Below, in pieces: positions 7,966 through 25,329 of a stretch of DNA of 35,365 bases. Source of the DNA: an uncultured Pelagibacteraceae bacterium (lineage in GTDB: Bacteria; Pseudomonadota; Alphaproteobacteria; Pelagibacterales; Pelagibacteraceae); NCBI GenBank assembly GCA_902618555.1, contig CACNAY010000008.1:1-35365 (forward strand), read 5' to 3'. Each line of letters begins with the position of its first letter. Within the stretch, counting starts at the first letter, position 1. The notes under the pieces were generated by a model, which was not told the DNA's origin, ran no database searches, and was given only the letters and a program-made list of their open reading frames with translations. Made by a program: the position numbers and the translations under genes.

Positions 7966-8778
7966 ATGAAAAATATTTATACGTGGGCAGCTAATCCTGC
8001 AAAAAGAACTGTCACTGTCGGTGATATTATTGAAGCTAAAGGAAAAAAAATTCTTACACAAGTAACTGCAAATAATTCATTAGAGGCAAAAGCAGCTGAA
8101 GAAGCAGGTTTTGACATGATAATAGGAAGTGCTTCAAATGTTAAGAAGGTTCGGGAAGGATCCAAGTTTCTTTTTTATACGGCAGCACTCGAACTACATA
8201 ATTATCCTACAGCCGAGGATGTTTTACGTGGAGCCTTTAAAGCTTTAGAGAATGGTGCTGATGCGGTTATGACTGCCAGAAGTATGGATGTTGTTTCTAT
8301 GCTTGCAAAAGAAGATGTTCCAGTTATGGGTCATTTAGGTTTGGTTCCTAGAAAATCTACATGGATTGGTGGCTTAAGAGCTGTAGGTAAAACTGCTGAT
8401 GAAGCATACGAACTATTTAAAAAATTTAAACGTTTAGAGGATGCTGGGGCCTTTTCAGCCGAATGTGAAGTTATTCCTGAAAATATTATGGGGGAAATAT
8501 CAAAAAGGACGAGTATTGTAACTGTATCTCTAGGATCTGGAAAAAAAGCTGATGTTATGTATCTATTCATGAACGATATCTGTGGAGAGCAAGAAAAGTC
8601 TCCTAGACATGCAAAAGCTTATACAAATTTAAAAAAGATGAAAGATGAAATTGAAATCGAAAGAGTTAAAGCCTTAAAAGCATTTATCAAAGATAGTTTA
8701 GAGGGGAAATTTCCTGGGCCTGAAAATTCAGTAAATGTTAGTGAAGAAATTCTAGAAAATTTTAAAAAGAAACTTTAA
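7966..8778 (+). CDS. PanB-like (ketopantoate hydroxymethyltransferase-family) protein, metal ligands altered
   Basis: 270-residue TIM-barrel protein of the PanB / PEP-mutase superfamily. The best family match is PVMGHLGLVPRKSTWIGG (119-136), followed by an Ala/Glu-rich helix and AECEVIPENI (165-174), which keeps the Glu equivalent to the PanB catalytic base. By my alignment to E. coli PanB from memory, the Mg ligands are not conserved: VGDS becomes IGSAS, LLADLPF aligns with a segment lacking the Asp (FYTAAL), and VKIEGG becomes VMTARS. It is unlikely to be an ordinary pantothenate enzyme. It is in an operon with the C11orf54-like gene, and a PanE-like gene lies at 16490. Its stop overlaps that of the convergent transporter gene by 2 bases. 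Confidence 0.8.
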   Translation: MKNIYTWAANPAKRTVTVGDIIEAKGKKILTQVTANNSLEAKAAEEAGFDMIIGSASNVKKVREGSKFLFYTAALELHNYPTAEDVLRGAFKALENGADAVMTARSMDVVSMLAKEDVPVMGHLGLVPRKSTWIGGLRAVGKTADEAYELFKKFKRLEDAGAFSAECEVIPENIMGEISKRTSIVTVSLGSGKKADVMYLFMNDICGEQEKSPRHAKAYTNLKKMKDEIEIERVKALKAFIKDSLEGKFPGPENSVNVSEEILENFKKKL

Positions 8779-9701
8779 TCTTTTTTAATAGGAATAGTTG
8801 GGTGTCTTGCTGTTGAAGTAACAATGTTTTTCTTTAATTTTACTTCTCTCAAAACGATATATACACCTGCTGCAATTATAATTAAGTTTCCTATATAATT
8901 ATTAATTGTAGGTATCTCATTAAAAACAACATAACCCAAAAATACACCTGCAAAAATTTGAGTATATAAAATTGATCCAAAAATCGCTCCAGGCAGATGT
9001 CTGGCGGCATTGATAACAAATATCATGGCTGTTCCTCTAGAAATTCCAGAAATAGCGTTCAAAACTAAATCATTAAAAGTCATCTCTTTGAAAACAAAGA
9101 ATACAAATATACCAGAAAACAATATCATAAAAATCTTTCCGAATATTAAAAATGAGAACAAGCTTTCCTCATAACCATATTTTCTTACTATTAAATAACT
9201 TGCAGATGCAAAAATTGGGCACAACAAAGCTACAAATACGTAACTGTTAATTTCGGCTCCAAAAGGATTAATAGAAATAAGTGTACCGATAAAACCAATT
9301 ACTATAGCAGTAAATCTTTTCCATCTAACAACTTCACCTAAAAATAAAACCGATCCGATGGTTATTAATAATGGTATTAAAAATACAATACTGTACATAG
9401 TAACCATTGGTAATAAATAGAATCCTGTGTAGGCAAAAAAAACAGCTAACACCATCGTTAAAGTTCTAAAAAAATGAATTTTTAAATTAGCACCCTTTAA
9501 TTCTTTCCAGCCATCGAGGGTTTGGGTGTACAAAATAATAGGTATAAGAGCGAACAAGGAGTTGACGAAAATTATCTGTATTATGTCGTAATCTTCAGCA
9601 ATATATTTTACTATTGCATCTTGAGTTACAAATAAAAAATACCCTAGGCAAGCTAGAAAAAATTCGGGAAGATAATTCTTCTCCGATAATTTTGAATTCA
9701 T
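8775..9701 (-). CDS. EamA/DMT-family membrane transporter
   Basis: 308 residues with about ten hydrophobic segments arranged as two EamA repeats, typical of drug/metabolite exporters. The first repeat begins LPEFFLACLGYFLFVTQDAIVKY-like (residues 12 on) and the second begins near the middle (YVFVALLCPIFASASYLIVRK). The C-terminal tail is polar and basic. Members export amino acids, intermediates or take up metabolites; the substrate is unknown. It is the last gene of the binding-protein operon and overlaps the PhyH-type oxygenase gene by one base (TAATG), so it may handle a product or substrate of that pathway. Confidence 0.88.
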   Translation of the reverse strand: MNSKLSEKNYLPEFFLACLGYFLFVTQDAIVKYIAEDYDIIQIIFVNSLFALIPIILYTQTLDGWKELKGANLKIHFFRTLTMVLAVFFAYTGFYLLPMVTMYSIVFLIPLLITIGSVLFLGEVVRWKRFTAIVIGFIGTLISINPFGAEINSYVFVALLCPIFASASYLIVRKYGYEESLFSFLIFGKIFMILFSGIFVFFVFKEMTFNDLVLNAISGISRGTAMIFVINAARHLPGAIFGSILYTQIFAGVFLGYVVFNEIPTINNYIGNLIIIAAGVYIVLREVKLKKNIVTSTARHPTIPIKKD

Positions 9702-10684
9702 TAAATAATATTTGCTAAATCTCTTTTAGTTCCTTTGAAAGTAGGAAGAGGATATTTATAAGACCATTTTCTTGGAATGCATTTTACTTTAGCTTTTTCC
9801 CATAAAGCAATCCATTGTTTGTAATTTTGCACTTTGATTTTATTTTTGTTTTTGCTTTTGACAACAAAATTAGGTAATGGATCTCTTCCTGAAGGCTGAC
9901 CTGCTTTATTATATCTCAAGTCCATACTTATTCTAAAATTTTTTGATTTATTTGGTAGTGAACAATGAAGTAGATATCTATTTAACAATATTATATCGCC
10001 GACATCAGCTTCAAGGGGCACGGTTGATAATTTATCGATTATTTCTTTGCCTCTAACTTCTACTTGTCCCTTACTTCCAAAATCGTGGTTAACAAGTCCA
10101 AATTTATGACTTTCTTTTACAGCAAGCATACAACCATTTTCTATTCTTGTTTTAGTAAAAGGTATCCAACACGTTACTAATTCAGTACCCTTCTGTCCTT
10201 TTTTATTCATAACGCCAGCATCTTGATGCCAAGGTGTTCTTCCAACTAAGCCGTCATTTAAATTCTTTTTTGCAACACCTTTTTCAGGTTGTTTAATTCT
10301 TGAATTTTGACAAGGATTAGAAGCTATCTCGGGACCTAGAATTTTTTCAATCTTATCTAAAATCTTTTTATTTTTAATTAAATTCCATATTGATTGACTC
10401 GCAAAAAAATCACTATTAGCGTTTATGTTTTTTTCAGGAAGTCTTATGTTAAAATATTGATCAAGTTCAGGAATATCTAAAGAAACCAAATATGAATATT
10501 TTTTCTTAAACTCATAATTTAGTACTTTTACTTTATCACTTTTAGGAACAAATCTATGAATGAGCCTATCCATGATAAAAGCCATATCATTTAAAATTGG
10601 TTCTAAATCCTCTTTATAATCTAAAACACCCTTTAATCTTATGAAACCTTGTTTCTCAAAAATTTTTTTAATATTTTGGCTCAT
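9701..10684 (-). CDS. PhyH-type Fe(II)/2-oxoglutarate dioxygenase
   Basis: 327-residue member of the phytanoyl-CoA dioxygenase family, soluble. The iron ligands are visible as H153-x-D155 (TPWHQDAG) and H240 (YLLHCSLPN), and the 2OG-binding Arg is R251 (NFRISMDLRY). The intervening ENGCMLAVKESHK (182-194) is a family signature. All residues needed for catalysis are there, so it should hydroxylate a small substrate using O2 and 2-oxoglutarate. It lies 38 bases downstream of LivG and overlaps the EamA gene by one base. Relatives act on acyl-CoAs, ectoine, phosphonates and quaternary amines. Nothing in the sequence picks one of these. Confidence 0.9.
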   Translation of the reverse strand: MSQNIKKIFEKQGFIRLKGVLDYKEDLEPILNDMAFIMDRLIHRFVPKSDKVKVLNYEFKKKYSYLVSLDIPELDQYFNIRLPEKNINANSDFFASQSIWNLIKNKKILDKIEKILGPEIASNPCQNSRIKQPEKGVAKKNLNDGLVGRTPWHQDAGVMNKKGQKGTELVTCWIPFTKTRIENGCMLAVKESHKFGLVNHDFGSKGQVEVRGKEIIDKLSTVPLEADVGDIILLNRYLLHCSLPNKSKNFRISMDLRYNKAGQPSGRDPLPNFVVKSKNKNKIKVQNYKQWIALWEKAKVKCIPRKWSYKYPLPTFKGTKRDLANII

Positions 10685-10722
10685 TGAATCGTAATGAATG
10701 GAAAAATATTATCAAATTTATT

Positions 10723-11520
10723 TTAGACTGCAAGTGCTTTTCTCATCTCTTCATCGTCCATTTTTTTACCCAAATACGCCTCGATTACAGCATTATCATC
10801 TTTTACTTGAGCTGGAGTACCCTCTGCAATTTTCTGACCATGGTCAAAAACAGTTACTGAATTACAAGTATCCATTACGACCTTTAAAATATGCTCTATA
10901 ATAATAAGAGTAAGGCCATATTTTTCTTTTAGCTGCATAATAATTTTCATTAAATTATCTACGTTGACTGGGGATAAACCTGCAGCTGGTTCGTCTAACA
11001 TTAGTAATTTTGGTTTCATGGCGATTGCCCTTGCTAAAACTAATAATCTTCTTTGACCTCCAGAAAGTTCACTAGCATTTAGCTCTGCATAGTCTGCTAA
11101 TCCCACAAAAGAAAGAAGTTCCATCATTTCTTCTTTGATAGCTCTTTCTTGATCCCAGATTTTTTTTCTTCCTATGACTGCATCGAAAAACTTGTAAGGC
11201 ACTCTAGTATGATATCCCGACATAACATTATCTATAACTGTCATATCTTGGTAAAGTCTTAGTAATTGGAACGTTCTTGATAAACCATAGCTAGCAATCT
11301 CATGTGGAGGTGCAAAAGTAATATCATGACCATCAAACTCAATATAGCTTCCAGGATCGCTATCATAGATTCCTGAAACTAAATTAAAAAATGTACTTTT
11401 GCCTGAGCCATTGGGTCCAATTATTCCTCTAATTTCATTTTTTGGAAGTTCAAAATCAACTTTATTTATAGCTTTCAAACCACCAAATGATTTAGATAAT
11501 TGTTTAGTTTTTAAAATCAT
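10723..11520 (-). CDS. livG: ABC transporter ATP-binding protein, LivG type
   Basis: 265-residue cytoplasmic ATPase of a branched-chain-amino-acid-type importer. Walker A is GPNGSGKS (35-42), the ABC signature LSGGQ (152-156) and Walker B LLMLDEP (172-178), followed by the LivG-typical AAGLSPVNVDNL and IIIEHILKVVMD. It overlaps LivM by 4 bases (ATGA). Its partner ATPase LivF is on the opposite strand at 14684, so the transporter is split over two divergent operons. The symbol denotes family only; the cargo may not be an amino acid. Confidence 0.92.
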   Translation of the reverse strand: MILKTKQLSKSFGGLKAINKVDFELPKNEIRGIIGPNGSGKSTFFNLVSGIYDSDPGSYIEFDGHDITFAPPHEIASYGLSRTFQLLRLYQDMTVIDNVMSGYHTRVPYKFFDAVIGRKKIWDQERAIKEEMMELLSFVGLADYAELNASELSGGQRRLLVLARAIAMKPKLLMLDEPAAGLSPVNVDNLMKIIMQLKEKYGLTLIIIEHILKVVMDTCNSVTVFDHGQKIAEGTPAQVKDDNAVIEAYLGKKMDDEEMRKALAV

Positions 11521-12509
11521 GTTGTTTTTTCTGTTCCAGTTTTCTTTTTAAATCTCTTTTCTAAGAAATATCTGTCAATAAAACCGCCTAAACCCTTAGG
11601 CATAAATAAAATAGTTAATACAATTGTTAAACCAAATATTAAAAGCTGATATTTATATAATGGTCTAGTTAAGTCATAAACAATTGTAATTACTATAGCG
11701 CCAATAATTCCACCCCAAATATGACCGAGACCTCCTAGGACAACCATAGCTAAGAAGGTTACCATTTCTATAACTGTGTAATTATTAGGATGAATGTATC
11801 CTGGGGGCATATGAGCATAAACTGCACCTGCAGCACCAGCAAACATAGCGCTAAGAATAAAAGCTAAGATCTTATATTTTTTTACATTAATTCCAGCGGC
11901 TGCAGCACAAATTGGATCCTCCCTGATAGACATAAACGCTCTTCCAACTCCAGATCTTAAAATACTGAATGAGAAGTAAACCGCTATAATCATTATTGTC
12001 ATTGAGATAAAATAATATCTATCTGGGGAGTCGAAGTTGTAACCCATTAAAGAAGGTGTTGGAATATCAGAAATACCAAATGTAGATCTAAAAAAGTTTC
12101 CGTTTTCTATAAATAATCTTATCGCCTCACCCCCACCTAATGTCGCTAAAGCTAAATAAGGACCTTCCAATCTAAAAGATGGAATCCCCATTGCTACTCC
12201 AAAAAATGCAGTAACTATTATAGCTATGGGTAAAGTTGCCCAAAAACCTAGTCCTAAATATAAAAACAATGTTCCAGCGGTATAAGAACCTACTGCAAAT
12301 AAACCAACGTGTCCTACTGTAACCTGACCGCAATAACCTTTAACAATGTTTAGTCCTGCGGCAACTACAATATTCACAAATATTAAAGTAGCTAAATGTG
12401 ACTGATAAACATCCGTGAAAACTACTGATGGTACAAAAGCCAAGATGACGAAAGCTATAATAAAAGCAATAAAAGGATAATCTCTGATAATCGATTTAAA
12501 TTTTTCCAT
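11517..12509 (-). CDS. livM: ABC transporter permease, LivM type
   Basis: 330-residue inner-membrane permease with about nine to ten hydrophobic spans, beginning with the short basic N-terminus MEKFKSIIRDYPF. Family segments include AAGLNIVKGYCGQVTVGHVG, FRLEGPYLALATLGGGEAI, RSGVGRAFMSIREDPICAAA and VVLGGLGHIWGGIIGA. It pairs with LivH (15453-16490) to form the membrane channel. It overlaps the 2OG oxygenase gene by one base (TAATG) and LivG by 4 bases. Confidence 0.92.
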   Translation of the reverse strand: MEKFKSIIRDYPFIAFIIAFVILAFVPSVVFTDVYQSHLATLIFVNIVVAAGLNIVKGYCGQVTVGHVGLFAVGSYTAGTLFLYLGLGFWATLPIAIIVTAFFGVAMGIPSFRLEGPYLALATLGGGEAIRLFIENGNFFRSTFGISDIPTPSLMGYNFDSPDRYYFISMTIMIIAVYFSFSILRSGVGRAFMSIREDPICAAAAGINVKKYKILAFILSAMFAGAAGAVYAHMPPGYIHPNNYTVIEMVTFLAMVVLGGLGHIWGGIIGAIVITIVYDLTRPLYKYQLLIFGLTIVLTILFMPKGLGGFIDRYFLEKRFKKKTGTEKTT

Positions 12510-13375
12510 TATCCAACTTCTCTCATTAAATAATCTGAGTCGTGTGAAGATGTGAGCATTCTTTTGTTTGTTCTCTTAATTTTGGGTAAATAGCTAACGT
12601 TTTTATATCTCCATACAACAGGTTTGCTTAAAGCATAACTTCCATAAATAAAAAATCTTTTCTTGCCTTTGATTTCTCTAAATAAAGATACACCATGGTA
12701 AGAGTTAGGTGTGGATTGGAAAAAAATTACACTCCCTTTTGACGGAGTAAATTCTTTAACTTTTGCTAGCTCAGAAATACCAGGAAATCTTTTAAAACTT
12801 TTTCTATATTTCATATCAGTTTTCTTTTTAAAAATTGATAAAGCTCCGCCGTTTTTTTTTGGTATATCGTTTAAATAAATAAGAAAATTATAGAGTCTTG
12901 TTACATCATCTCTGTGCGGTCTTAACCTATAACCACCCCTAGAAACAGAAAAATCTATGTCTAAATTTACATTCGGGTTTTTGTAAGTTTTACCTAACAT
13001 TTTCATTAATTCTTTTGAATTCATCAATTTTTTATTTGTAAATTTTTCCCTCAAAAATTTGCTAGGCAAGTATGCATTGGACCAACCATAATCCTTAAAA
13101 GTTTTTTTAAATCTATTTTCAACTTTTTTGTAAAAAGATTGGCTATTAAATTGTTTATATAATTTGTTAGATAATTTTGATTTTTTTAAATAATTTTTAA
13201 AATTACTTGACCCTTTGTTAATTCTATTTCTACCACCTTGTATTAAATCATCGAATGATTTTGCATTCCGAATTTCTTCTATAAGTTTTTCACAATCTTT
13301 TTTTGAAATAGCACTTTTGCCAACCATTACAGGAAAGTTGCTTTTAACTTTCTTCAATTTATTAACGTTTATCAT
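12509..13375 (-). CDS. 2OG-Fe(II) oxygenase (prolyl-4-hydroxylase-like)
   Basis: 288-residue double-stranded beta-helix oxygenase inside the transporter operon. Fe ligands are H154-x-D156 (LRPHRDDVTR) and H227 (NSYHGVS), with the 2OG-binding R240 (KKRFFIYGSY). GGALSIF (177-183) is the usual strand after the HxD motif. The N-terminal 130 residues are Lys/Asn-rich and not recognised. It is a different family from the PhyH-type enzyme four genes away. Its ATG lies 16 bases past the hairpin that ends the binding-protein transcript, so it is the first gene of the read-through segment. Bacterial relatives hydroxylate peptides, sugars or lipids; the target here is unknown. Confidence 0.85.
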   Translation of the reverse strand: MINVNKLKKVKSNFPVMVGKSAISKKDCEKLIEEIRNAKSFDDLIQGGRNRINKGSSNFKNYLKKSKLSNKLYKQFNSQSFYKKVENRFKKTFKDYGWSNAYLPSKFLREKFTNKKLMNSKELMKMLGKTYKNPNVNLDIDFSVSRGGYRLRPHRDDVTRLYNFLIYLNDIPKKNGGALSIFKKKTDMKYRKSFKRFPGISELAKVKEFTPSKGSVIFFQSTPNSYHGVSLFREIKGKKRFFIYGSYALSKPVVWRYKNVSYLPKIKRTNKRMLTSSHDSDYLMREVG

Positions 13376-13391
13376 TTTTGTGGTTTCCTTG

Positions 13392-13423
13392 AAAAAATGA
13401 GCGGTAGTTTTACCTACCGCTCA
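13392..13423 (-). terminator. Intrinsic terminator/attenuator after the binding-protein gene
   Basis: Perfect 10-base-pair stem TGAGCGGTAG / CTACCGCTCA (13398-13407 with 13414-13423) with a six-base loop, followed on the minus strand by six T (13397-13392). It is by far the strongest hairpin I noticed in the window. It lies 15 bases after the binding-protein stop and before four more genes of the same operon, so it probably trims most transcripts to the binding protein alone. A T-run also follows the hairpin on the plus strand, but no plus-strand gene ends here. Confidence 0.88.
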
Positions 13424-13438
13424 CAATTTTTTTAACTA

Positions 13439-14629
13439 TTATAAACCAGCGCTAGCATTAAATGTTACAGTACCAGCAACTTTTGTTTTAAAGTTTTTTC
13501 CACCTTTAGTGTACTCAATCATAACAGGTGTTCTGTTACCATCTCTACACTCAGGCGTTCCTGATTTACAGAAATTGATTGGACCAGAAGCTAAACCTCT
13601 AAAGTCAGTTGTCGCAGCAATTGCGTCTCTAACTTTATTTCTGTCAGCTGCTAGATCTCCAGTGAATTTAACTTTTTTAAGAGCTATCTCTAGAATATCT
13701 AGTAAGTCCATCATTTGTGAAAAGTCGTGACCAGGTACAACACCATATTTGTCTTTTACCATTTTCACAAATTTCTTAGCTACAGGTCTAGTGTCAGATG
13801 CAGCAAATGCAGCTGAGAAAGTTACACCTTTTGCAGCAGAACCAGCATTTATTGGTATTTCTACTTTAGAACCAATAGAAGCTGTTACTCTGTGAACAGA
13901 TTTTGGTATTCCAACTTCATACGATTGTACAAGTCCTCTAACTGTTTCATCCAATAAAGCTGAAATTACAAGAACTTCTGGATTAGTAGCTTTAGCTTTA
14001 GTTAAGTAACTTCTAAAGTCAGTTTCTTTTTCTCCAGATTGAACCATATAAGTTGGCTCAACGTTGTAGTTCTCTCTCATGTAATCAGCTAAAGATAATG
14101 CAAAATCTTTACCAGCAGCATCTGGACCATAGATGTAAGCTATCTTAGTACCTTGATTTTCTGCAGTAAATTTACCTTGTACGATTTTGTAAAATCTTGA
14201 TGATACAGGTACTCTAAAAATGTATTCACTACCTTTTTTAGTAATGTCAGCATTTGTTGAGTGAGGTATGATTTGTGGAACTTTAGCTTTAGCTGAAACA
14301 GGTACCATAGGTAATGTTACAGAACTACAGCTAGATCCAATTATAACGTGAACTTTATCTTGGTAAGCAAGTTTTGTTGCGTTTGCTACACCTTTTTCAG
14401 ATTTACACTCATCGTTATAAAGTGTTAAGTCGATTTTTTGACCGTTGATAGTGCCTTCTTTATTCCACTTTGCAACAGTATCAGTAATTAACTCTCCGTG
14501 TTTATAACCAACATCTGATAGCATTCTAAAAGAAACACCAATTTTGATTGTTTCTGCTTGAGCTAAAGTCGTGATTACTAAACCTGCGGAAAAGACAATT
14601 GCTGAAAAAACAAATTTAAGTTTATTCAT
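13439..14629 (-). CDS. Liv-type periplasmic substrate-binding protein
   Basis: 396 residues. The signal peptide MNKLKFVFSAIVFSAGLVIT ends in TLAQA, and the mature protein begins ETIKIGVSFRMLSDVGYKHG, typical of type I periplasmic binding proteins of the LivK/Peripla_BP_6 family. Other family marks are YNDECKSEKGVANATKL, VIIGSSCSSVTLPM, ISALLDETVRGLVQS and the Cys pair near the C-terminus (FCKSGTPECRDG). The in-frame ATG at 14641 is rejected because a GGGGGA Shine-Dalgarno sits inside that region, 4 bases before ATG 14629, which also starts the signal peptide exactly. It leads a minus-strand operon and is followed by a strong terminator. The ligand is not deducible; relatives bind amino acids, amides, urea or aromatic acids. 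Confidence 0.93.
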   Translation of the reverse strand: MNKLKFVFSAIVFSAGLVITTLAQAETIKIGVSFRMLSDVGYKHGELITDTVAKWNKEGTINGQKIDLTLYNDECKSEKGVANATKLAYQDKVHVIIGSSCSSVTLPMVPVSAKAKVPQIIPHSTNADITKKGSEYIFRVPVSSRFYKIVQGKFTAENQGTKIAYIYGPDAAGKDFALSLADYMRENYNVEPTYMVQSGEKETDFRSYLTKAKATNPEVLVISALLDETVRGLVQSYEVGIPKSVHRVTASIGSKVEIPINAGSAAKGVTFSAAFAASDTRPVAKKFVKMVKDKYGVVPGHDFSQMMDLLDILEIALKKVKFTGDLAADRNKVRDAIAATTDFRGLASGPINFCKSGTPECRDGNRTPVMIEYTKGGKNFKTKVAGTVTFNASAGL

Positions 14630-14683
14630 TATTTCCCCCATTTGTTATTTAATTGTTGCTAAGGCTATAAAATAATAGTTATA
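14630..14683. promoter_or_regulatory. Divergent promoter region of the split Liv transporter
   Basis: 54-base gap serving two divergent operons. On the plus strand TTGTTA (14642-14647) and TATAAA (14666-14671) are 18 bases apart and would give an almost leaderless livF message. The minus-strand promoter must lie here or inside the first codons of livF. If livF really starts at TTG 14741 the control region grows to 111 bases. The boxes are by eye only. Confidence 0.35.
14634..14639 (-). promoter_or_regulatory. Strong ribosome binding site of the binding-protein gene
   Basis: GGGGGA on the minus strand, four bases before ATG 14629. Strong sites are scarce in this window, so this suggests high translation of the binding protein and decides its start against the ATG at 14641. 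Confidence 0.7.
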
Positions 14684-17439: not shown

Positions 17440-19353
17440 GTGTCTAAAGAAATTATTTGGCAACCATCAAAAGAGCAGATTAGAAATTCAAAACTAACTA
17501 AGTTTATACAACATTGTAAACTAAAAAATTATGATGAGCTTGAGAAAAAAAGTTTTTCTGATCCTGGATGGTTATGGGACAATGTGATCAAATTTTCGGA
17601 TTTAAAATTTTATAAACCTTACTCAAAAATATTAGATGAATCAAAAGGGACTCCTTGGACAAGGTGGTGTATCGGAGGTAAAACTAATATAGTTTTAAAT
17701 TGTATAGATCGTCATAAAGATAAGGAATTTTTTAACAACACTTTCATTTTTGCTGAAAGAGAAGACGGGAAAGAAAGCTCAATTACTTATAAAGAATTTG
17801 ATAAGCAAATCTCAAAGGTTGGAAATACTTTGAAAATAAATGGCTTTAAAAAAGGTGATGTAATCGCACTTTACATGCCTCAATTTATAGAAACTTATAT
17901 TGCTTACTTTGCTATTTTAAAAATTGGGTGTGTAGTGCTACCTTTATTCTCTGGATATGGATCAAAGGCAGTTATTGAAAGACTCAACATAGCAAAAGCT
18001 AAAGGTATATTTACTGTTGAGAAAACATTTAGAAAAGCAAAAGAAATAAGAATGTTTGATCAAATCAAAAATGAATTAGATCAAGTCATTTCTTTAGAAA
18101 AAATTTTTTTATTGGGAAAAGAGAAAGGAAAGAAAATCTTTAATTGGGAAAATTTTCAAAATGTTTCTGATAATTTAAAGACAGAGGAAACTGATGCTGA
18201 AGATCCTGCTATTATCCACTTTACATCAGGTACAACTGGAAAACCGAAAGGATGTGTTTATACTCATATTGGTTTAGTTGCTAAGATGTCGTTTGATGAA
18301 GGAGTTTTAGCAGACTTTAAACAAACTGATATTCATTTGTGTATGGCCGATATGGGATGGATGGTGGGTTCTAAGTCTGCAACAATAGCTTCTTCACATG
18401 GAGCACAAATGGTAATCGCTGAGGGAGTTCCTGATTTTCCTGATGAAGTGCGTTTTTGGAAACTCATTGAAAAATACAAGGTTTCCTGGACAGAGCTTTC
18501 CCCTGCTCTCATCAGAGCACAAATGATGAAAGATGAAAAACTTTTTAAAGATTTAGATTTGAGCTCATTAAGAATGATTTGTACTGGTGGAGAACCTTGG
18601 ACAGAAAAACCTTGGAAATGGTTATTTCAAGTCATTGGTAAATCTAAAGTTCCTATTATGAATTCAGCTGGAGGCACTGAAGTTTCTGGTTCTATTTTAC
18701 ATTGTTGTTTACATCGTCCTTTTAAGGTTGGATCTTTTAATGCTCCCATTCCTGGAATGAGTGCAGACATCTTAAATTTAGATGGAAAAAAAGTTTCTAC
18801 AAATGAAATGGGTGAATTGGTCATGAGAAAATCATCAATCGGATTAACAAAGAGTTTATGGAATGACGACAAGCGTTACATCGATAATTATTGGAGTGTT
18901 ATTAAAAATTATTGGGTACATGGTGATCTTGCAAGTAGAGACACTGACGGCCATTGGTATTTACATGGAAGATCTGATGATACTATAAAAGTATCAGGCA
19001 AAAGAATTGGTCCATCAGAGCTCGAGAGCGTAATAGTCAAAAGTGGAAAAGCAAAAGAGGTCGCTGCTGTTGGAATACCTGACGCAAATAAAGGGTCAAA
19101 AATTATTTTATCTATCGTTCCAGCAGAAAATAATGATCAAAAAGAAAGTTTTTTTGAAGATTTAGTTATAAAAGATTTAGGGAAATCATTTAAGCCTGAT
19201 AAGGTAATTTTTGTAAAAGATTTACCTAAAACAAGAAATATGAAAATAATGAGAAGAGTTATAAAATCATGTTTATCAAACCAAGACCCAGGTGATTTAT
19301 CAACGCTATTAAATCCAGAATCTGTAGAGGAGATTAGATCACATGCAATTTAA
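17440..19353 (+). CDS. AMP-forming acyl-CoA synthetase (acetyl/acetoacetyl-CoA synthetase type)
   Basis: 637-residue ANL-superfamily ligase that activates a carboxylic acid to its CoA thioester with ATP. The N-terminal ACAS-type segment includes LWDNVIKFSDLKFYKPYSKI (46-65). The adenylate loop is FTSGTTGKPKG (261-271). GGTEVSG and WVHGDLASRDTDGHWYLHGR follow, then the hinge and KVSGKRIGPSELES. The C-terminal LPKTRNMKIMRR supplies the catalytic Lys, K602, which in this family is a known acetylation site. The start is GTG 17440; no ATG lies upstream in frame before the previous gene. It overlaps the crotonase gene by 11 bases, pointing to a shared pathway. The acid it activates is unknown. Confidence 0.9.
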   Translation: MSKEIIWQPSKEQIRNSKLTKFIQHCKLKNYDELEKKSFSDPGWLWDNVIKFSDLKFYKPYSKILDESKGTPWTRWCIGGKTNIVLNCIDRHKDKEFFNNTFIFAEREDGKESSITYKEFDKQISKVGNTLKINGFKKGDVIALYMPQFIETYIAYFAILKIGCVVLPLFSGYGSKAVIERLNIAKAKGIFTVEKTFRKAKEIRMFDQIKNELDQVISLEKIFLLGKEKGKKIFNWENFQNVSDNLKTEETDAEDPAIIHFTSGTTGKPKGCVYTHIGLVAKMSFDEGVLADFKQTDIHLCMADMGWMVGSKSATIASSHGAQMVIAEGVPDFPDEVRFWKLIEKYKVSWTELSPALIRAQMMKDEKLFKDLDLSSLRMICTGGEPWTEKPWKWLFQVIGKSKVPIMNSAGGTEVSGSILHCCLHRPFKVGSFNAPIPGMSADILNLDGKKVSTNEMGELVMRKSSIGLTKSLWNDDKRYIDNYWSVIKNYWVHGDLASRDTDGHWYLHGRSDDTIKVSGKRIGPSELESVIVKSGKAKEVAAVGIPDANKGSKIILSIVPAENNDQKESFFEDLVIKDLGKSFKPDKVIFVKDLPKTRNMKIMRRVIKSCLSNQDPGDLSTLLNPESVEEIRSHAI

Positions 19354-20113
19354 AGATATATTATATGAAGTCAAAGGTGACTACGCTCATGTCACTATAA
19401 ATAGACCTAAAGTGTTAAATGCTTTTACACCAGTAACTCTTCAAGAACTTAAGACAGCTCTTGATGCTGCAGAAAAAGATAAAGAAGTTGGAGTAATAGT
19501 TTTATCAGGTGCTGGAGATAGAGCCTTTTGCTCTGGTGGAGATATGAATTGGGAAAGTTCTAAAGAATTTCAAGATCATGAATACGAATTTCATATTCAC
19601 TTAACAAAATGTAGTAAACCAATCATAGCTAAAGTTGATGGGTACGCGATTGGTGGTGGAAATCATATGGCTTACTTTTGTGATTTAACTATAGCAAGTG
19701 AGAATTCTATATTTGGACAAAATGGTCCCCGAGTTGGTTCTCCAGCCGGAGGAGCTATCGTTGCTCATTCTGCAAATATTTTAGGACATAAACGAGCAAG
19801 AGAAATGTGGATGACTTGTAAAAGATACTCAGCAAAAGAGATGATGAATTGGGGTTTGGTAAATTCAGTTGTAAAAAAAGATAAATTAGATGAGGAAGTT
19901 AAGAAATATGGCGATGAAATTTTAAAAGCTGCACCAACTTGTTTAAAAATATTAAAGGCCAGTTTTAGAAAACAATTTGAAGAAATTTTAAAAATCACAC
20001 AAAAAGGTATGGTTGAAGAAGTTGCTCCTGGCTATTTTAAAACTGGAGAACAGGCAGAAGGCGCTAAGGCCTTTCTAGAAAAAAGAAAGCCAAATTTCAA
20101 AAAATTTAGATAA
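19343..20113 (+). CDS. Crotonase-family enzyme, MenB/BadI-like
   Basis: 256-residue enoyl-CoA hydratase/isomerase-fold protein. It resembles 2-ketocyclohexanecarboxyl-CoA hydrolase (BadI) and naphthoyl-CoA synthase (MenB) more than ordinary hydratases: N-terminal MQFKDILYEV, FCSGGD (62-67) and GYAIGGG (100-106) forming the oxyanion hole, IFGQNGPRVGS (123-133), CKRYSAKE (159-166) and the terminal LEKRKPNFKKF. MenB and BadI have Asp after the GS motif (GSFDGG, GSVDPG); here it reads GSPAGG, so that Asp is A135. Ring closure or opening as in those enzymes would need another base. It follows the acyl-CoA synthetase with an 11-base overlap and is coupled by TAATG to the enolase-superfamily gene. 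Confidence 0.88.
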   Translation: MQFKDILYEVKGDYAHVTINRPKVLNAFTPVTLQELKTALDAAEKDKEVGVIVLSGAGDRAFCSGGDMNWESSKEFQDHEYEFHIHLTKCSKPIIAKVDGYAIGGGNHMAYFCDLTIASENSIFGQNGPRVGSPAGGAIVAHSANILGHKRAREMWMTCKRYSAKEMMNWGLVNSVVKKDKLDEEVKKYGDEILKAAPTCLKILKASFRKQFEEILKITQKGMVEEVAPGYFKTGEQAEGAKAFLEKRKPNFKKFR

Positions 20114-21201
20114 TGAAAATTAAATCAATCAAAGCAATCACTTTGAGTATGCCGTTTAGCCATGGAGGAAAAAAGGTAATTTTTCATGGAAAAGAATGGA
20201 AAAGTTTAGAATTTAACCTAGTTAAAATTGAAACAGATAAAGGTATCACTGGTTGGGGTGAAGCCTTTGGTTATACAAGTTGGAAAGCAGTAAAAATAGC
20301 AATTGAAGAGATGGTGGCTCCTTTACTCGTTGGAAAAGATATGAGTAATATACCAGAACTTCTTTTAACTCTTCAAAAATCTTTGCACTTATTTGGTAGA
20401 TACGGGATAACAATGTTTGCAATATCTGGTGTTGAAATTGCATTATGGGATGCTTTAGGCAAAGAAAAAAATAAGCCAATTCATGAATTGTTAGGAAAAA
20501 AAAATAAAGATCTATTTAAAGCCTATTCAAGTCTTTTTAGATATGGTGATCCAAAAATAATAGAGCAAAAATGTAAGCAATCATTAGATGATGGTTACCA
20601 AGCTATAAAACTTCATGAAATAGAAAATGATTGTATTGAAGCTGGAAGAAAAGGAACAGGTAATCTTCCTTTAATGTTAGACACTAATTGTCCTTGGACT
20701 TATGAAGAAACATTATCCAAAAAAGATTTTTTAAAAAGTATGAAACTTACTTGGTTGGAAGAACCTATTTACCCACCAGAAGATTATGAAACTCTTGCAA
20801 GATTAAATAAAGAACTTGGAATACCTATAGCCTGCGGAGAGAATGCGTGTACAGAATTTGAGTTTAAATCAATGATCAAACAAAAAGCAGTTACTTTTGT
20901 TCAACCGTCAGTAATTAAAGTTGGTGGAATTTATGAGATGTTCAAAATAATCCAGCATGCAGAAAAAAATAATATATCTGTAATGCCACATACTGCTTAT
21001 TTTGGACCAGGTTTTTTAGCTACACTTCAATTAGCTTCATTAATGGAAAAAGATACCTATATTGAGAGATTCTATTTAGATATCGATCAAGAATTTTATC
21101 CTAATTTTAAAAGAGCATTAAATGGGAAATATAAATTACCTTCAGGACCAGGTCTAGGTATTGACCTGGATTATAATAAATTAAGTAAATATGAAATATA
21201 G
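20113..21201 (+). CDS. Enolase-superfamily (mandelate racemase/muconate lactonizing-like) enzyme
   Basis: 362 residues: N-terminal capping domain (about 1-125), then a TIM barrel. Members abstract the proton next to a carboxylate using Mg. Metal ligands are D190 (LMLDTN), E216 (WLEEP) and E243 (ACGEN). The acid-base motif on strand 2, usually K-x-K, reads K166-L-H168. On strand 7 His is present (H293, MPHTAYFGPG), but its usual Asp partner (QPD) reads QPS at S266. So it resembles neither textbook muconate cycloisomerase nor mandelate racemase; a dehydratase for an acid sugar or a related reaction is possible. It is coupled to the crotonase gene by one base and overlaps the CitE-like gene by 11 bases. 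Confidence 0.88.
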   Translation: MKIKSIKAITLSMPFSHGGKKVIFHGKEWKSLEFNLVKIETDKGITGWGEAFGYTSWKAVKIAIEEMVAPLLVGKDMSNIPELLLTLQKSLHLFGRYGITMFAISGVEIALWDALGKEKNKPIHELLGKKNKDLFKAYSSLFRYGDPKIIEQKCKQSLDDGYQAIKLHEIENDCIEAGRKGTGNLPLMLDTNCPWTYEETLSKKDFLKSMKLTWLEEPIYPPEDYETLARLNKELGIPIACGENACTEFEFKSMIKQKAVTFVQPSVIKVGGIYEMFKIIQHAEKNNISVMPHTAYFGPGFLATLQLASLMEKDTYIERFYLDIDQEFYPNFKRALNGKYKLPSGPGLGIDLDYNKLSKYEI

Positions 21202-21841
21202 ATCTGTTTTATTTGTTCCAGGACATGAAGAAAAAAAAATTAAAAAAGCTTATACATTAAATGCAGATTTAATTGTTATTGACTTAGAATCAACTGTTCC
21301 TGAAGATCAGAAAAAACAGGCTAAAAAAATAATAAAAGAATGCAATGTTAATAAAGATCAAACATATATAAGGATAAATAATAATTCAGATTTAGAATTT
21401 GTTACATCAGAAAAATTCCCTGGAATATTTCTTCCATTTACAGAAACAAAAAAACAATTAATTGAGATAGATATATTATTAAAAAAAACTGAGAAATTGA
21501 AAACTGATATAATCCCAATTTTGGAAAGTATAAATGGTCTAGCTAATCTTGAGGAAATTTGCTCTTTTTCAGAAAGAATTCAAATTATATCTTTTGGCTC
21601 TCATGATTTAGCTAAATCTATAAATCTTAAGATTTCAGAAGATGAAAAAGAAATATTAGAATTTAGAAAAAATATAGTAAATAAATCTAAAAATATTAAG
21701 AGCCCAATAGATACCTCTTTTTTAAACTTTAAAGATTTAAATGGATTTGAAAAATCATGTAATATGGTTAAAAAATTAGGTTTTGGTGGTAAAGCTTGTA
21801 TTCATCCAGACCAAGTTCAAATCTCAAACAAAATTTTTTAA
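21191..21841 (+). CDS. Short CitE-like (HpcH/HpaI family) lyase
   Basis: 216-residue TIM-barrel protein of the citrate-lyase-beta / malyl-CoA lyase family, Mg-dependent C-C bond lyases often acting on CoA thioesters. Motifs: SVLFVPGHEEKKIKKA (5-20), DLIVIDLESTVP (with the conserved Glu), YIRIN (with the Arg), ILESINGLANL (metal-binding Glu), SFGSHDLAKSI (metal-binding Asp), and the C-terminal GFGGKACIHPDQ. The protein stops soon after the IHPDQ motif, while most relatives run to 270-320 residues and have a C-terminal lid. All core catalytic residues are seen, so it may be active with a small substrate. It overlaps the enolase-superfamily gene by 11 bases and the GGCT-like gene by one. Confidence 0.85.
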   Translation: MKYRSVLFVPGHEEKKIKKAYTLNADLIVIDLESTVPEDQKKQAKKIIKECNVNKDQTYIRINNNSDLEFVTSEKFPGIFLPFTETKKQLIEIDILLKKTEKLKTDIIPILESINGLANLEEICSFSERIQIISFGSHDLAKSINLKISEDEKEILEFRKNIVNKSKNIKSPIDTSFLNFKDLNGFEKSCNMVKKLGFGGKACIHPDQVQISNKIF

Positions 21842-22245
21842 TGATAAATACTAAGAAACTTTTGTACTTTGCTTATGGTACAAATCTTAATAAAAAAATT
21901 TTTTTAAAAAAATATAAAAACGCTAAATATCTAAGTAAGCATATTTTAAAAGATTTTGAATTAGTCTTTAGATCAAAATATAGGGTACCAGATATACAAA
22001 GAAAAAAGGGTTCAAGTGTGAAAGGTATTATCTATGAAATAGATAAAATAACTGAGAAAAAATTAGATAGATACGAAGACTATCCTAAGTTATATATAAA
22101 AAAATTTTTTAATAAAAAAAATAAAAATGTAATGTATTATTTCATGAAAAGAAAAACTCCTATTTTAAAACCGGCAAAATACTACCTTAAAGTCATGAAA
22201 AGCGGCTATCGACAAAATAACTATAAATTTAATTTCAAATATTAA
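21841..22245 (+). CDS. GGCT/AIG2-like (gamma-glutamylcyclotransferase-fold) protein
   Basis: 134 residues from ATG 21841, which forms a TAATG junction with the CitE-like gene. An in-frame ATG at 21796 lies inside that gene and is not favoured. The YGTNLN motif (family YGSNL) near the start and the LDRYEDYPKLY segment with the acidic residue of the family support the fold. Such proteins release 5-oxoproline from gamma-glutamyl amines or act on other gamma-glutamyl compounds. It is rich in Lys and Asn, like its neighbours. Whether it takes part in the pathway or is only carried along is not clear. Confidence 0.75.
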   Translation: MINTKKLLYFAYGTNLNKKIFLKKYKNAKYLSKHILKDFELVFRSKYRVPDIQRKKGSSVKGIIYEIDKITEKKLDRYEDYPKLYIKKFFNKKNKNVMYYFMKRKTPILKPAKYYLKVMKSGYRQNNYKFNFKY

Positions 22246-22246
22246 A

Positions 22247-23287
22247 GTGAAAAACAAAATAAAGATTGCAGTTGTTGGGATTGGCTTGATGGGGAGTCAA
22301 CATTTAAAAGCTTTAAGTATTTCAAAAAAAGCAAAACTCCATTCAATTGTAGATGTAAATAAAAATTCTATAATTCATGCTAAAAAATTTAAAGTTCCAT
22401 TCTATAGATCATCGACTGAATTATTAAATAAAAATAAACCAGATGCCGTAATTGTTGCTACACCCAATCAGTTTCACGAAAAACATACGATAAGTTTTTT
22501 AAATGCAAAAATACCTGTTTTATTAGAAAAACCAATTTCCGATAATATTTCAAAAGCAAAAAAAATTATTCAAAGCTCAAAAAAAAATAAAACTCATCTT
22601 CTTATCGGCTATCATAGAAGGCACAACAGTATCGTAACTAAAGTAAAGAAACAAATCGATAGCGGAAATCTTGGAAAAATTGTTGCTGCTAATGTTATGT
22701 GCTGGTTATACAAAAATAAAGATTGGTACAAAGAAAAATGGCGTATTAAAAAAGGAGGAGGTCCTCTAGGTATTAATCTAGTCCATGATATTGATCTTAT
22801 TTGTTACTTATTAGGTCCCATAACACATGTTCAAGCAACAACCTCAAATAAAATTAGAAAATATGAAGTTGAAGATACCGCTATTGTTAATTTTTCCTTT
22901 AGATCAGGCGCGTTATGTACATTAAGTGTTTCTGATACAATTGTAGCTCCTTACAGTTATGAGCTTACAGCTGGAGAAAACCCTGCATACCCTACAACAA
23001 ATCAATCAGCATATTTTATTGGGGGGACAAAAGGCTCGATACAATTTCCTAATTTAAAACATTGGTACAATAAAGGTGAGAGAAGTTGGTGGAAACCAAT
23101 CTATCATAAGGATTTTAATATTCGTTTGAGTAGATTTACTTTAATAAATCAAATTGACCACTTATGCGATGTTGTGTCTGGAAAAGCTAAACCAAAAGTA
23201 AGTGGAAATGATGGCTTGCAATCGCTTAAAATATTTGATGCCATACTAAGAAGTACTAAAACCGGTAAAAAAATAAGAGTAAACTAA
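22247..23287 (+). CDS. Gfo/Idh/MocA-family oxidoreductase 1
   Basis: 346 residues starting at GTG 22247, one base after the previous stop. The NAD(P)-binding GIGLMG is at 11-16, the family EKP motif at 94-96 (LLEKPISD) and the catalytic-region His in LVHDIDLICYLLG at H180. The C-terminal alpha/beta domain includes CTLSVSDT and YFIGGTKGSIQFP. Enzymes of this family oxidise or reduce sugars, cyclitols (for example inositol) or related polyols. It is the first of three unlike paralogues in a row, each sharing the operon, and is coupled to the second by TAATG. The substrate is unknown. Confidence 0.88.
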   Translation: MKNKIKIAVVGIGLMGSQHLKALSISKKAKLHSIVDVNKNSIIHAKKFKVPFYRSSTELLNKNKPDAVIVATPNQFHEKHTISFLNAKIPVLLEKPISDNISKAKKIIQSSKKNKTHLLIGYHRRHNSIVTKVKKQIDSGNLGKIVAANVMCWLYKNKDWYKEKWRIKKGGGPLGINLVHDIDLICYLLGPITHVQATTSNKIRKYEVEDTAIVNFSFRSGALCTLSVSDTIVAPYSYELTAGENPAYPTTNQSAYFIGGTKGSIQFPNLKHWYNKGERSWWKPIYHKDFNIRLSRFTLINQIDHLCDVVSGKAKPKVSGNDGLQSLKIFDAILRSTKTGKKIRVN

Positions 23288-24417
23288 TGAAAAGACTTAA
23301 ACTTGGTATCATTGGTGGTGGCCCTGGATCTTGGATTGGTCATGTACATAGAATAGCCTCAAGATTCGATGATAAATATGAAATTGTAGCTGGCGTTTTT
23401 TCAAGAAATTATAAAATCAATCAATCTTTTGGGACAAGTATAGGAATAAAAAAAAATAGGTGTTACAAAAATTATAAAGATCTTTGCTATTCTGAAAAAA
23501 AAATTAAAAATGGTATCGATGTAGTAGCGATTATGACACCACCTGGGAGTCATCAAGAAATAGCGGAATTATTCATTAAAAATAACATTCATGTTATATC
23601 TGATAAACCATTTGCAGGTTCTCTACCTCAAGCTAAAAAACTTTATAAAACAATTAAAAGTAATAAAAAGATTGTTTACGGGCTCACACATAATTATTCG
23701 GCCTACCCAATGGTAAGACATGCTAAAAAATTGGTAGAAGATAAGAAACTTGGAAATATCGAATATATTAATGTCGAATATGTCCAAGACTGGTCTAATG
23801 GTAAAAAAGTTACTCCTAATTCTGCAAAAAAGATATTTAAATGGAAGTTAGATAAAAAAATAGCTGGAGTTTCTACTGTGCTAAATGAAATAGGATCTCA
23901 TGCATATCATTTATGTAATTACATTACTGGTCTTGAAGGAAAAAGCTTATTTGCAGATATCAAACAATATTCAAAAAAAATTAGATTTGATACAAACGCT
24001 CAAGTTTTCATAAATTATGAGAATGGAGCTAAGGGTTTATTTTGGGCATCAACCACTGCTAAGGGTGGTGTTTATGGATTACGAATAAGAGTATTTGGTT
24101 CAATGGGAAGTTTAGAATGGGTGCAGAATAATCCCAACTATTTGAAATATAATGCTGCTAATGGAGCAACAAAAGTTTTAGAAAGAGGTTTCAATGAAAG
24201 TGGTTTCTCGAAAAACTTTTCAAGAATAAAATACGGTCATCCTGAGGGATATTTGAGTGCTTTTTCTAATTTGTATAAAGAAATTGCAACAAAAATTAAT
24301 TCAAAAAATAGCAAGAAAAGATTTTATTTTCCAACTGCATATGAGGGTTTGCTTACAGCAAGGTTTATAGATGGATGTGTAAAGTCATCATCTAAGAAAA
24401 AGTGGGTGGCCTTTTAA
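23287..24417 (+). CDS. Gfo/Idh/MocA-family oxidoreductase 2
   Basis: 376 residues. The Rossmann segment LGIIGGGPGSWIGHVHRIA (6-24) has an insertion compared with the classic GxGxxG. The EKP motif reads DKP (106-108, ISDKPFAG), and the catalytic-region His lies in NEIGSHAYHLCNYITG. The LGxIxYINVEYVQDW-like stretch and GLFWASTTAKGGVYGLRIRV belong to the C-terminal domain. It resembles the larger Gfo/Idh/MocA subgroup that includes inositol- and galactose-type dehydrogenases. It starts one base inside the previous stop and ends directly at the next ATG. Confidence 0.88.
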   Translation: MKRLKLGIIGGGPGSWIGHVHRIASRFDDKYEIVAGVFSRNYKINQSFGTSIGIKKNRCYKNYKDLCYSEKKIKNGIDVVAIMTPPGSHQEIAELFIKNNIHVISDKPFAGSLPQAKKLYKTIKSNKKIVYGLTHNYSAYPMVRHAKKLVEDKKLGNIEYINVEYVQDWSNGKKVTPNSAKKIFKWKLDKKIAGVSTVLNEIGSHAYHLCNYITGLEGKSLFADIKQYSKKIRFDTNAQVFINYENGAKGLFWASTTAKGGVYGLRIRVFGSMGSLEWVQNNPNYLKYNAANGATKVLERGFNESGFSKNFSRIKYGHPEGYLSAFSNLYKEIATKINSKNSKKRFYFPTAYEGLLTARFIDGCVKSSSKKKWVAF

Positions 24418-25329
24418 ATGATAAAATCCTGTGTGATAGGATTATCAAAAGTAGGTATAATTCATTGTGAAAGTTTAATAAAAATAAAAAACACTTCGTT
24501 AAATTATATTTTTGATAAAAATTACAATCTAAGCAAAAAACTATCTAAAAAGTTAAAATGTAAGACTTCTAGAAACTTCAATAGTATATTGAAAAAAAAA
24601 GATATAGAACTATTTGTAATTGCATCGCCGACAACCACGCATGATTTTTATATAAAAAAATTGATAAAATTTAAGAAAATGATCTATTGTGAAAAACCAA
24701 TTACAAATAATAATAATAAACTTGATAAACTCAAAAACTTAGTAAAAAAGCATAAAATTAAATTTTGTGCTGGTTTAAATCGTAGATTTGCAAAGGAATA
24801 TGTTGCTTTGAAAAAGAAAATTAACAAAAAAAAAGTTAATTATATCCAAATAATATCTAAATCTGCCAACCATAATGTTGATCTGTCAATTAGGAATGGA
24901 GGCCTTTTTTTTGATAAAGGATTTCATTTTTTTGATTTAGCTTGTTGGTTGAGTAATTCGAAACCAGAGAAAATGATTGTAATTTCAAAATCAATTAGTT
25001 CTGAGAATTTCTTAAATAATGGAGATTTCTCAGATGCAATAATAAATTTAAAATTCAGGAATGGAATAGTCGTTGAAATTGTATTTAGTAGAAAATGCAG
25101 ATTTGGAAATTTTGAAAAAATTAAAGTGCATGGTGAAAAATTTTTATTAGATTCTGACGACTTTTCTGACAAAAAGACATTATATAATGACTTTTCTATA
25201 AGACACAGAAAGTCATACTTAAATTGTTTAAAAAAATTTATTGAAAGTAAAAATAATCTATTAATGAATGAAGCAATATTAACCCAAAAGATATGTGCTG
25301 ATGCTTTGAAAAAAGCAAGATACCAGTAA
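24418..25329 (+). CDS. Gfo/Idh/MocA-family oxidoreductase 3
   Basis: 303 residues, shorter and more diverged than the other two. The Rossmann motif is weak (CVIGLSKVGIIH, 5-16), the EKP motif is present (92-94, YCEKPITN), GLNRRFAKEY follows, and the active-site block FFDKGFHFFDLACWLS keeps the D-x-G-x-H-x-x-D arrangement. It is rich in Lys and Asn. It is the last gene of the plus-strand operon; its stop directly abuts the stop of the convergent lpxB, leaving no space for a terminator between them. Confidence 0.85.
   Translation: MIKSCVIGLSKVGIIHCESLIKIKNTSLNYIFDKNYNLSKKLSKKLKCKTSRNFNSILKKKDIELFVIASPTTTHDFYIKKLIKFKKMIYCEKPITNNNNKLDKLKNLVKKHKIKFCAGLNRRFAKEYVALKKKINKKKVNYIQIISKSANHNVDLSIRNGGLFFDKGFHFFDLACWLSNSKPEKMIVISKSISSENFLNNGDFSDAIINLKFRNGIVVEIVFSRKCRFGNFEKIKVHGEKFLLDSDDFSDKKTLYNDFSIRHRKSYLNCLKKFIESKNNLLMNEAILTQKICADALKKARYQ

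Follow-up and report, generated by a model that had tools for sequence, protein, structure and literature searches.

Results

A divided Liv-type importer lies among enzyme genes in a SAR11 genome

We analyzed a stretch of 35,365 nucleotides (hereafter, the window) from an uncultured Pelagibacteraceae bacterium, a member of SAR11 (assembly GCA_902618555.1, contig CACNAY010000008.1, positions 1 to 35,365). The assembled genome totals 768 kb in 41 contigs and is 65.5% complete. The window carries a complete Liv-type ABC importer whose genes are divided across two divergent operons that also hold enzyme genes (Table 1). Open reading frame calling and Pfam/NCBIfam profile searches recovered every gene that an earlier sequence-only reading had named, on the same strands: a periplasmic substrate-binding protein (SBP), LivM, LivG, two 2-oxoglutarate (2OG) oxygenases and an EamA transporter in the minus arm, and LivF, LivH, a PanE-like reductase, an acyl-coenzyme A (CoA) synthetase (ACS), a crotonase, an enolase-superfamily enzyme, a CitE-like lyase, a GGCT-like protein and three Gfo/Idh/MocA enzymes (Gfo1 to Gfo3) in the plus arm. 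The two arms start 42 bases from each other, and the plus-arm genes indeed overlap or nearly touch, with intergenic gaps of -46 to +5 bases. Housekeeping genes flank the cluster on the left (trpC, lexA, gltX) and on the right (lpxB, lpxI, lpxA, lpxD, bamA). The borders first drawn were too narrow: four more genes, encoding an SDR oxidoreductase, an HpaH/MhpD-like hydratase, a DUF1907 protein and a PanB-like protein, extend the cluster leftward to approximately position 5412 and accompany it in all seven SAR11 genomes read far enough (G076, G117, G010, G006, G044, G094, G056). The PanB-like gene is absent beside DUF1907 in G053.

The two arms form one unit across SAR11

The two arms had been proposed to belong together, and across the genus they do. 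Among 121 genomes of the same genus, the crotonase was present in 42 and the SBP in 40; 45 genomes had either arm and 37 had both. We read the neighborhoods of all eight one-armed genomes, and in each case a contig end falls inside the cluster, so that no independent occurrence of the arms was seen within the genus. The hypergeometric chance of such an overlap, which ignores shared ancestry, is 4e-22. The PanB-like protein, found in 31 of the 121 genomes, never occurred without an arm. In a sample of 200 relatives, 56 crotonase matches at 1e-30 comprised 42 from the same genus and 14 sharing only the class; none came from other genera of the family, the number of such genomes sampled not being shown. 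Scanning GTDB for the crotonase turned up 74 loci; SAR11 accounts for 71, and none of these 71 records is a cultured isolate, as far as titles tell.

Forty SAR11 loci had both flanks complete (full-flank loci), and all of them share a 12-gene core (SBP, LivF, LivG, LivH, LivM, PanE, ACS, crotonase, enolase, CitE, Gfo1 and EamA). Three gene orders occur: the cluster is followed by lpxB in 20 loci, by the hydratase and DUF1907 in 14, and otherwise in 6. Moreover, PanE-LivH-LivF has been relocated to the other arm in G086 (RIS_SAG_62). That core genes are reshuffled but not lost argues for a functional unit, and the two arms are one unit. The cluster genes are also under purifying selection: in a comparison with G044, all 20 genes with a match (SDR to Gfo3) had nonsynonymous divergence (dN) well below synonymous divergence (dS), the highest ratio being ~0.22 (Gfo3); GGCT had no match in this comparison. 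Silent divergence from G044 was low for PanB-like (dS 0.47) and the SBP (dS 0.54) against 1.2-2.2 for the other genes compared, which hints at recent exchange.

The importer departs from branched-chain amino acid transporters

LivF, LivG, LivH, LivM and the SBP pass their Pfam gathering scores and make up the five-part Liv architecture. All miss the NCBIfam cut-offs of Liv proteins (LivG 234.8/362, LivF 222.1/441, LivM 209.5/366, LivH 114/379 and SBP 76/477 bits). We also compared the SBP with E. coli LivJ/LivK at the positions of ligand contact. The SBP retains Ser79 and Thr102, whereas Ala100 is replaced by His, Tyr150 by Ala and Glu226 by Ser, and these replacements are common to SAR11 and to its orthologs in other families. 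In LivJ/LivK, Glu226 holds the amino group of the ligand; its loss suggests a ligand without one. Given the missed cut-offs and the replaced Tyr150 and Glu226, we rejected branched-chain amino acid uptake; such amino acids are unlikely ligands of this SBP, consistent with the initial view that this is no ordinary amino-acid importer. The AlphaFold model of the SBP (mean pLDDT 43.5) was too poor for use. The split order LivG-LivM-SBP / LivF-LivH is not peculiar to the window genome, as it recurs in G373, G980 and G295, which represent two other families.

It could be argued that the locus holds an ordinary branched-chain amino acid transporter, around which unrelated genes accumulated in a variable region. 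Its Pfam families do match Liv transporters, and the region differs between genomes. However, the sequence departures described above, the lack among 121 genomes of any with a single arm and no contig break, and the purifying selection on the genes make this explanation very improbable.

Importer, Gfo1 and PanE each lead to AroQ-bearing operons

When 337 genomes of the class were searched with the SBP, orthologs of 49-51% identity were confined to G373, G295 and G386; G180 added a fragment of 54% identity. Orthologs were present in 12 of 111 relatives of G386 and in 2 of 106 relatives of G373 (G386 and G373 themselves counted), for a total of 16 genomes. The operon type linked to these SBPs comprises the hydratase, AroQ, PanE, SDR, acyl-CoA dehydrogenase, CoA-transferase, Gfo1, MaoC, SDRb, a TIM-barrel epimerase, LivF, LivH, SBP, LivM and LivG. 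AroQ is found in 7 of the 16 genomes (G373, G386, G872, G903, G877, G885, G911), QuiC in four (G373, G872, G877, G897) and LigB in two (G386, G903); in G180, G980, G878, G880, G891, G897 and G907 the contig ends on the AroQ side of the operon. AroQ and AroE of G373 score above their NCBIfam cut-offs and its QuiC reaches 815 of 1200 bits, while LigA, LigB, PrpF and an amidohydrolase lie downstream in G386. In G910, a 35% relative of the PhyH-type oxygenase follows LivG, as in SAR11. The gene set recurs within the SAR11 genus and only in part beyond it: outside SAR11 the importer co-occurs with PanE, SDR, the hydratase and Gfo1, but not with ACS, a crotonase of the SAR11 kind, the enolase or CitE. 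The absence of these four from the outside operons marks them as the SAR11 version of a lower part. On plasmids, no match was found to the SBP, DUF1907 or the hydratase.

Searched against plasmids, Gfo1 had 165 matching records, 12 of which were listed. We read seven of those 12, and AroQ lay within 10 kb in all seven; AroE was present in six, hpaI and hpaH in six, QuiC in one, and PanE-VOC-MaoC-CoA-transferase in one. Gfo1 matches the AroQ-linked Gfo proteins over near full length (28-42% identity, 193-316 bits) and the other Gfo-family proteins compared, Gfo2 and Gfo3 included, at no more than 67 bits. These are pairwise identities, the Gfo tree having been left unused for its very long branches and open forks. 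With PanE, 20 plasmid records matched and 15 were listed; AroQ, MaoC, VOC and CoA-transferase were present in four of the five loci read among these. In the PanE tree, the SAR11 proteins are placed beside, not within, the AroQ-linked groups. A megaplasmid of Enterococcus raffinosus (L217, 6996-10755) carries an operon of CoA-transferase, MaoC, PanE, VOC and AroQ in a Gram-positive gut-type bacterium, which hints that this operon type ends without aromatic ring cleavage.

Three parts of the cluster (the SBP with its transporter, Gfo1 and PanE) thus lead separately to AroQ-bearing operons of the quinate/shikimate type. None of 36 control neighborhoods, around relatives of other cluster enzymes, has AroQ. 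The nearest relatives found of the split importer, PanE, SDR, HpaH-like hydratase and Gfo1 lie in operons that carry AroQ, often with AroE, QuiC or LigAB, CoA-transferase and MaoC. A cyclic carboxylic acid, one of the substrate classes suggested at the outset, fits these operons.

Candidate enzymes of the SAR11 lower part

In the ACS, the Trp-Trp of acetate-CoA ligases is replaced by Ala-Gly, which presumably opens the acyl pocket. The enolase-superfamily enzyme keeps its metal ligands Asp, Glu and Glu, the DTNC, EEP and GEN motifs being alike in the 23 relatives aligned (20 from outside SAR11 and three from SAR11). Its subgroup, recognizable by KLHE and QPSV, occurs on plasmids and, at 1e-60, in 25 of the 288 other alphaproteobacterial genomes sampled. 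The CitE-like enzyme passes the HpcH/HpaI Pfam threshold (103.9 versus 25 bits), with the RIN, ES and D residues aligned, and misses the citE equivalog (107.2/443.4 bits).

The PanB-like protein passes its Pfam gathering score and misses the NCBIfam cut-off (111.6/272 bits). Asp45, Asp84 and Glu114 of E. coli PanB, which we take to be the metal ligands, are replaced by Asn, Ala and Ala, and we rejected PanB chemistry because these ligands are missing. Its AlphaFold model (mean pLDDT 38.3) was too poor for use. Rhizobial relatives (~56%; L161 8729-14547 and L162 8840-13704) also lack most of the PanB metal ligands and sit in a conserved cluster with a ribokinase, a sterol desaturase-type protein, a Rieske protein and an FAD oxidoreductase.

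A possible CoA-dependent route for hydroaromatic acids

We see about an even chance that this ~20 kb SAR11 island is catabolic for a hydroaromatic acid of the quinate/shikimate kind, meaning a cyclohexane or cyclohexene carboxylate with hydroxyl groups, broken down through CoA esters and C7 dicarboxylates and not aromatized. The relatives' gene contents lend fair support to a hydroaromatic acid as the probable substrate class; the chemistry of the route, carbon-carbon cleavage included, is what we infer from the enzyme families.

In the proposed route, the importer would bring in the acid, Gfo1, SDR and PanE would oxidize its hydroxyls, and the ACS would form the CoA ester, a step that the CoA-transferase may take in the related operons. 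Hydration or opening of the ring would fall to the crotonase. Shikimate is a cyclohexene-1-carboxylate with three hydroxyls. The double bond of shikimoyl-CoA could be hydrated, the new hydroxyl oxidized and the resulting 2-oxo derivative hydrolytically opened to 2,3,4-trihydroxypimelyl-CoA; BadK, BadH and BadI follow the same logic of hydration, oxidation and opening on the unhydroxylated ring. Within the enolase superfamily, sugar-acid dehydratases use 2,3-dihydroxy acids as substrates, and the enolase-superfamily enzyme may dehydrate the 2,3-dihydroxy-acid end to give 4-hydroxy-2-oxoheptanedioate, free or as a CoA ester. This compound is a substrate of HpaI-type aldolases, and the HpcH/HpaI-CitE-fold enzyme, together with the HpaH-like hydratase, might convert it to pyruvate and succinate semialdehyde. 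A by-product may leave the cell through EamA, and the DUF1907 protein (which we assume to be a possible ester or lactone hydrolase), the PanB-like protein and the 2OG oxygenases may broaden the range of substrates. The carbon count of this putative route agrees with the gene content.

Several observations weigh against a hydroaromatic substrate or against this chemistry. No AroQ, QuiC or protocatechuate gene lies within the SAR11 cluster. The SBPs of SAR11 and G386 differ at 5 of 13 ligand positions compared and may therefore bind different ligands. In G295, cut on one side by the contig end, no AroQ appears within the 27.8 kb examined; the SBP-linked operon of G910 is without AroQ, PanE and SDR in 19.9 kb, with 2.3 kb of contig unread on the left; and one of the five PanE loci read (H56, P. 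fungorum) lacks AroQ, MaoC, VOC and CoA-transferase. AroQ was likewise absent from all 36 control neighborhoods, searched with the same AroQ probes around relatives of the enolase (20), crotonase (11), PanB-like protein (2), ACS (2) and CitE (1); these loci were the ones available, not drawn at random, and several are closely related to each other. They contained weak hpaI matches (30-41%) in 3 of the 20 enolase loci, weak CoA-transferase matches in 5 of the 36, and one TIM-barrel epimerase in the CitE locus. The resemblance of the hydratase to HpaH, its best NCBIfam match, is weak (51/351.5 bits). The enolase-superfamily enzyme is without the usual KxK and QPD, having KLHE (23/23 relatives) and QPSV (22/23) instead; the three solved relatives shown carry KxK/KxR and QPD. 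Lastly, the crotonase has Ala135, in SPAGG, where MenB (GSFDGG) and BadI-type proteins (GSVDPG) have an Asp that we take to be catalytic. Its scores against these families, still its best matches, are below cut-off (MenB 251.2/380 and 236/342.7, BadI 250/467.6 bits). With the cut-offs missed and Asp changed to Ala, we rejected membership in MenB/BadI, and the ring cleavage that had been deduced from a MenB/BadI-like crotonase was not borne out. Subfamily relatives at 52-60% (alphaproteobacterium G635, proteobacterium G560, Tepidamorphus, a betaproteobacterium, a Pseudonocardia metagenome-assembled genome and a Leisingera plasmid) likewise have Ala for this Asp.

Genome-wide, neither QuiC nor LigB was found in 18 SAR11 genomes that carry the cluster (the genome of the window and 17 selected for being fuller; 65.5-94% complete), other ring-cleavage families not being searched. 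The same searches were positive in 7 and 4, respectively, of 14 control genomes, and hence the protocatechuate route of the relatives is probably absent from these genomes. This absence of AroQ, QuiC and LigB from the cluster or the 18 genomes would also suit another scenario, in which the importer and a few enzymes were taken from a hydroaromatic operon and now serve a different hydroxylated acid, branched or sugar-like, that is CoA-activated, dehydrated by the enolase and split by the CitE-like lyase. In its favor, the SAR11-specific enzymes are not linked to AroQ in other bacteria, several ligand positions of the SBP are unlike those of its relatives, and in Octadecabacter an enolase-superfamily enzyme and a CitE homolog accompany a TRAP importer, with no AroQ. 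Nevertheless, importer, PanE, SDR, hydratase and Gfo1 have been retained together, and Gfo1 and PanE indicate AroQ operons independently of the importer; we regard a switch of substrate as somewhat unlikely, though a serious contender.

A different ring acid, for example cyclohexane carboxylate or an aromatic acid, with AroQ of the relatives feeding only a side route, appears quite improbable. It draws on the relatives' acyl-CoA dehydrogenase, which matches cyclohexane-1-carbonyl-CoA dehydrogenase (254.8 bits versus a cut-off of 650; acryloyl-CoA reductase scores higher), and on their SDRb, which matches the cis-4-hydroxycyclohexanecarboxylate dehydrogenase model below cut-off. The SAR11 cluster, however, has no acyl-CoA dehydrogenase, and the 2,3-dihydroxy-acid dehydratase would be left without an obvious substrate. 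Neighborhoods of the enolase, crotonase, PanB-like, ACS and CitE relatives were also tried as a way to the route, and no pathway emerged. Pathways for itaconate, carnitine, inositol and fucose/rhamnose-type compounds were also considered; each accounts for fewer genes.

Returning to the hydroaromatic reading, its boldest form is that uncultured SAR11 lineages have a non-aromatizing CoA pathway for shikimate- or quinate-type acids via trihydroxypimelyl-CoA, 4-hydroxy-2-oxoheptanedioate and aldol cleavage, and that the AroQ-PanE-MaoC-CoA-transferase operons of Burkholderiales, rhizobia, the G386 family and Enterococcus are other versions of it. In this full form we hold the proposal to be unlikely.

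SAR11 is the commonest bacterial group of surface seawater, and its known diet consists mostly of small amino acids, osmolytes and one-carbon compounds. If the hydroaromatic reading is true, ring acids would be a new compound class for SAR11, with a dedicated island in roughly one in three sampled genomes of the genus (crotonase in 42 of 121), and the cluster would be the first gene set for non-aromatic quinate/shikimate breakdown, each enzyme of which is testable. Phytoplankton might be a source of ring acids. A quinic acid derivative is described from growing Phaeocystis pouchetii (PMC7686483). Quinic acid is also named among compounds listed for Roseovarius mucosus (PMC4511512).

Table 1. 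Genes of the SAR11 cluster, with positions in the window.
Feature	Position	Strand	Remarks
HDAC-fold deacetylase	4486-5415	-	Pfam; left edge, variable, 4 of 7 SAR11 genomes read out; membership doubtful
SDR oxidoreductase	5412-6158	-	Pfam, NCBIfam; 36-41% relatives adjoin PanE in SBP-linked operons of other bacteria
HpaH/MhpD-like 2-oxo-enoate hydratase	6155-6934	-	best NCBIfam match HpaH, below cut-off; ~25% relatives in SBP-linked operons
DUF1907 protein	6986-7948	+	Pfam; stays with cluster
PanB-like protein, without PanB metal ligands	7966-8778	+	Pfam; missing from some clusters
EamA-type transporter, possible exporter	8775-9701	-	Pfam; 40/40 full-flank loci
PhyH-type 2OG oxygenase	9701-10684	-	Pfam; 39/40 full-flank loci
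LivG-type ATPase	10723-11520	-	Pfam/NCBIfam; ~60% to SBP-linked operons of other families
LivM-type permease	11517-12509	-	Pfam/NCBIfam
Second 2OG-Fe(II) oxygenase	12509-13375	-	Pfam; variable, 24/40 full-flank loci
Periplasmic binding protein (SBP)	13439-14641	-	Pfam; 49-51% orthologs in AroQ-linked operons
LivF-type ATPase	14684-15460	+	Pfam/NCBIfam
LivH-type permease	15435-16490	+	Pfam/NCBIfam
PanE-like (ketopantoate reductase family) oxidoreductase	16490-17434	+	relatives in AroQ-CoA-transferase-MaoC operons
ACS, acetyl-CoA synthetase group	17440-19353	+	acyl-pocket Trp-Trp to Ala-Gly
Crotonase, FGQNGPR.GSPAGG-type subfamily near MenB/BadI, without their catalytic Asp	19343-20113	+	
Enolase-superfamily enzyme, KLHE/QPSV subgroup, candidate sugar-acid-type dehydratase	20113-21201	+	
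Short HpcH/HpaI-CitE-fold lyase or aldolase	21191-21841	+	
GGCT-like protein	21796-22245	+	variable, 18/40 full-flank loci
Gfo1, IolG-like Gfo/Idh/MocA dehydrogenase	22247-23287	+	nearest plasmid relatives (42%) adjoin AroQ
Gfo2, Gfo/Idh/MocA oxidoreductase	23287-24417	+	variable, 25/40; not close to AroQ-linked Gfo proteins
Gfo3, Gfo/Idh/MocA oxidoreductase	24418-25329	+	variable, 24/40

Two neighbors of the cluster were noted in passing. A gene of the glucose/sorbosone dehydrogenase type lies between lpxB and lpxI (26457-27512), a position kept in the kin examined, and an acidic Pro-Glu-repeat protein with hydrophobic stretches, variable in length in kin, adjoins the cluster (3581-4246).

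Comparison with known systems

An undescribed pathway may lie behind the cluster. A search of the PMC full-text literature, with subscription papers mostly and preprints wholly outside it, found no account of the cluster, of quinate/shikimate use by SAR11 or of the AroQ-PanE-MaoC-CoA-transferase operon.

The importer has the same five-part architecture and families as the Liv branched-chain amino acid importer, and differs from it by the missed cut-offs and replaced ligand residues. Operons of protocatechuate-route quinate/shikimate catabolism (AroQ/QuiB, QuiC, LigAB) hold relatives of the importer, PanE, SDR, hydratase and Gfo1, whereas the SAR11 cluster is without AroQ, QuiC and LigAB and has in their place a CoA ligase, a crotonase, an enolase and a CitE-fold enzyme. 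The AroQ-PanE-VOC-MaoC-CoA-transferase operons of Burkholderiales, Bradyrhizobium and Enterococcus have in common with it the PanE and Gfo1 relatives and CoA activation, but they have another importer or none nearby, a CoA-transferase in place of the synthetase, and MaoC in place of the SAR11-type crotonase. With the cyclohexane/cyclohexene-carboxylate pathway (AliA, BadK, BadH and BadI) the cluster shares a CoA ligase, a crotonase near BadI and dehydrogenases; the SAR11 crotonase, however, misses both the BadI cut-off and the Asp, and SAR11 has an extra sugar-acid-type dehydratase. Finally, the homoprotocatechuate lower pathway (HpaH and HpaI) is echoed by the HpaH-like hydratase and the HpcH/HpaI-fold enzyme of the window, and true hpaH and hpaI adjoin Gfo1-AroQ in rhizobial plasmids. 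Both window proteins, however, are far below the family cut-offs, and no ring-cleavage dioxygenase is found in the cluster.

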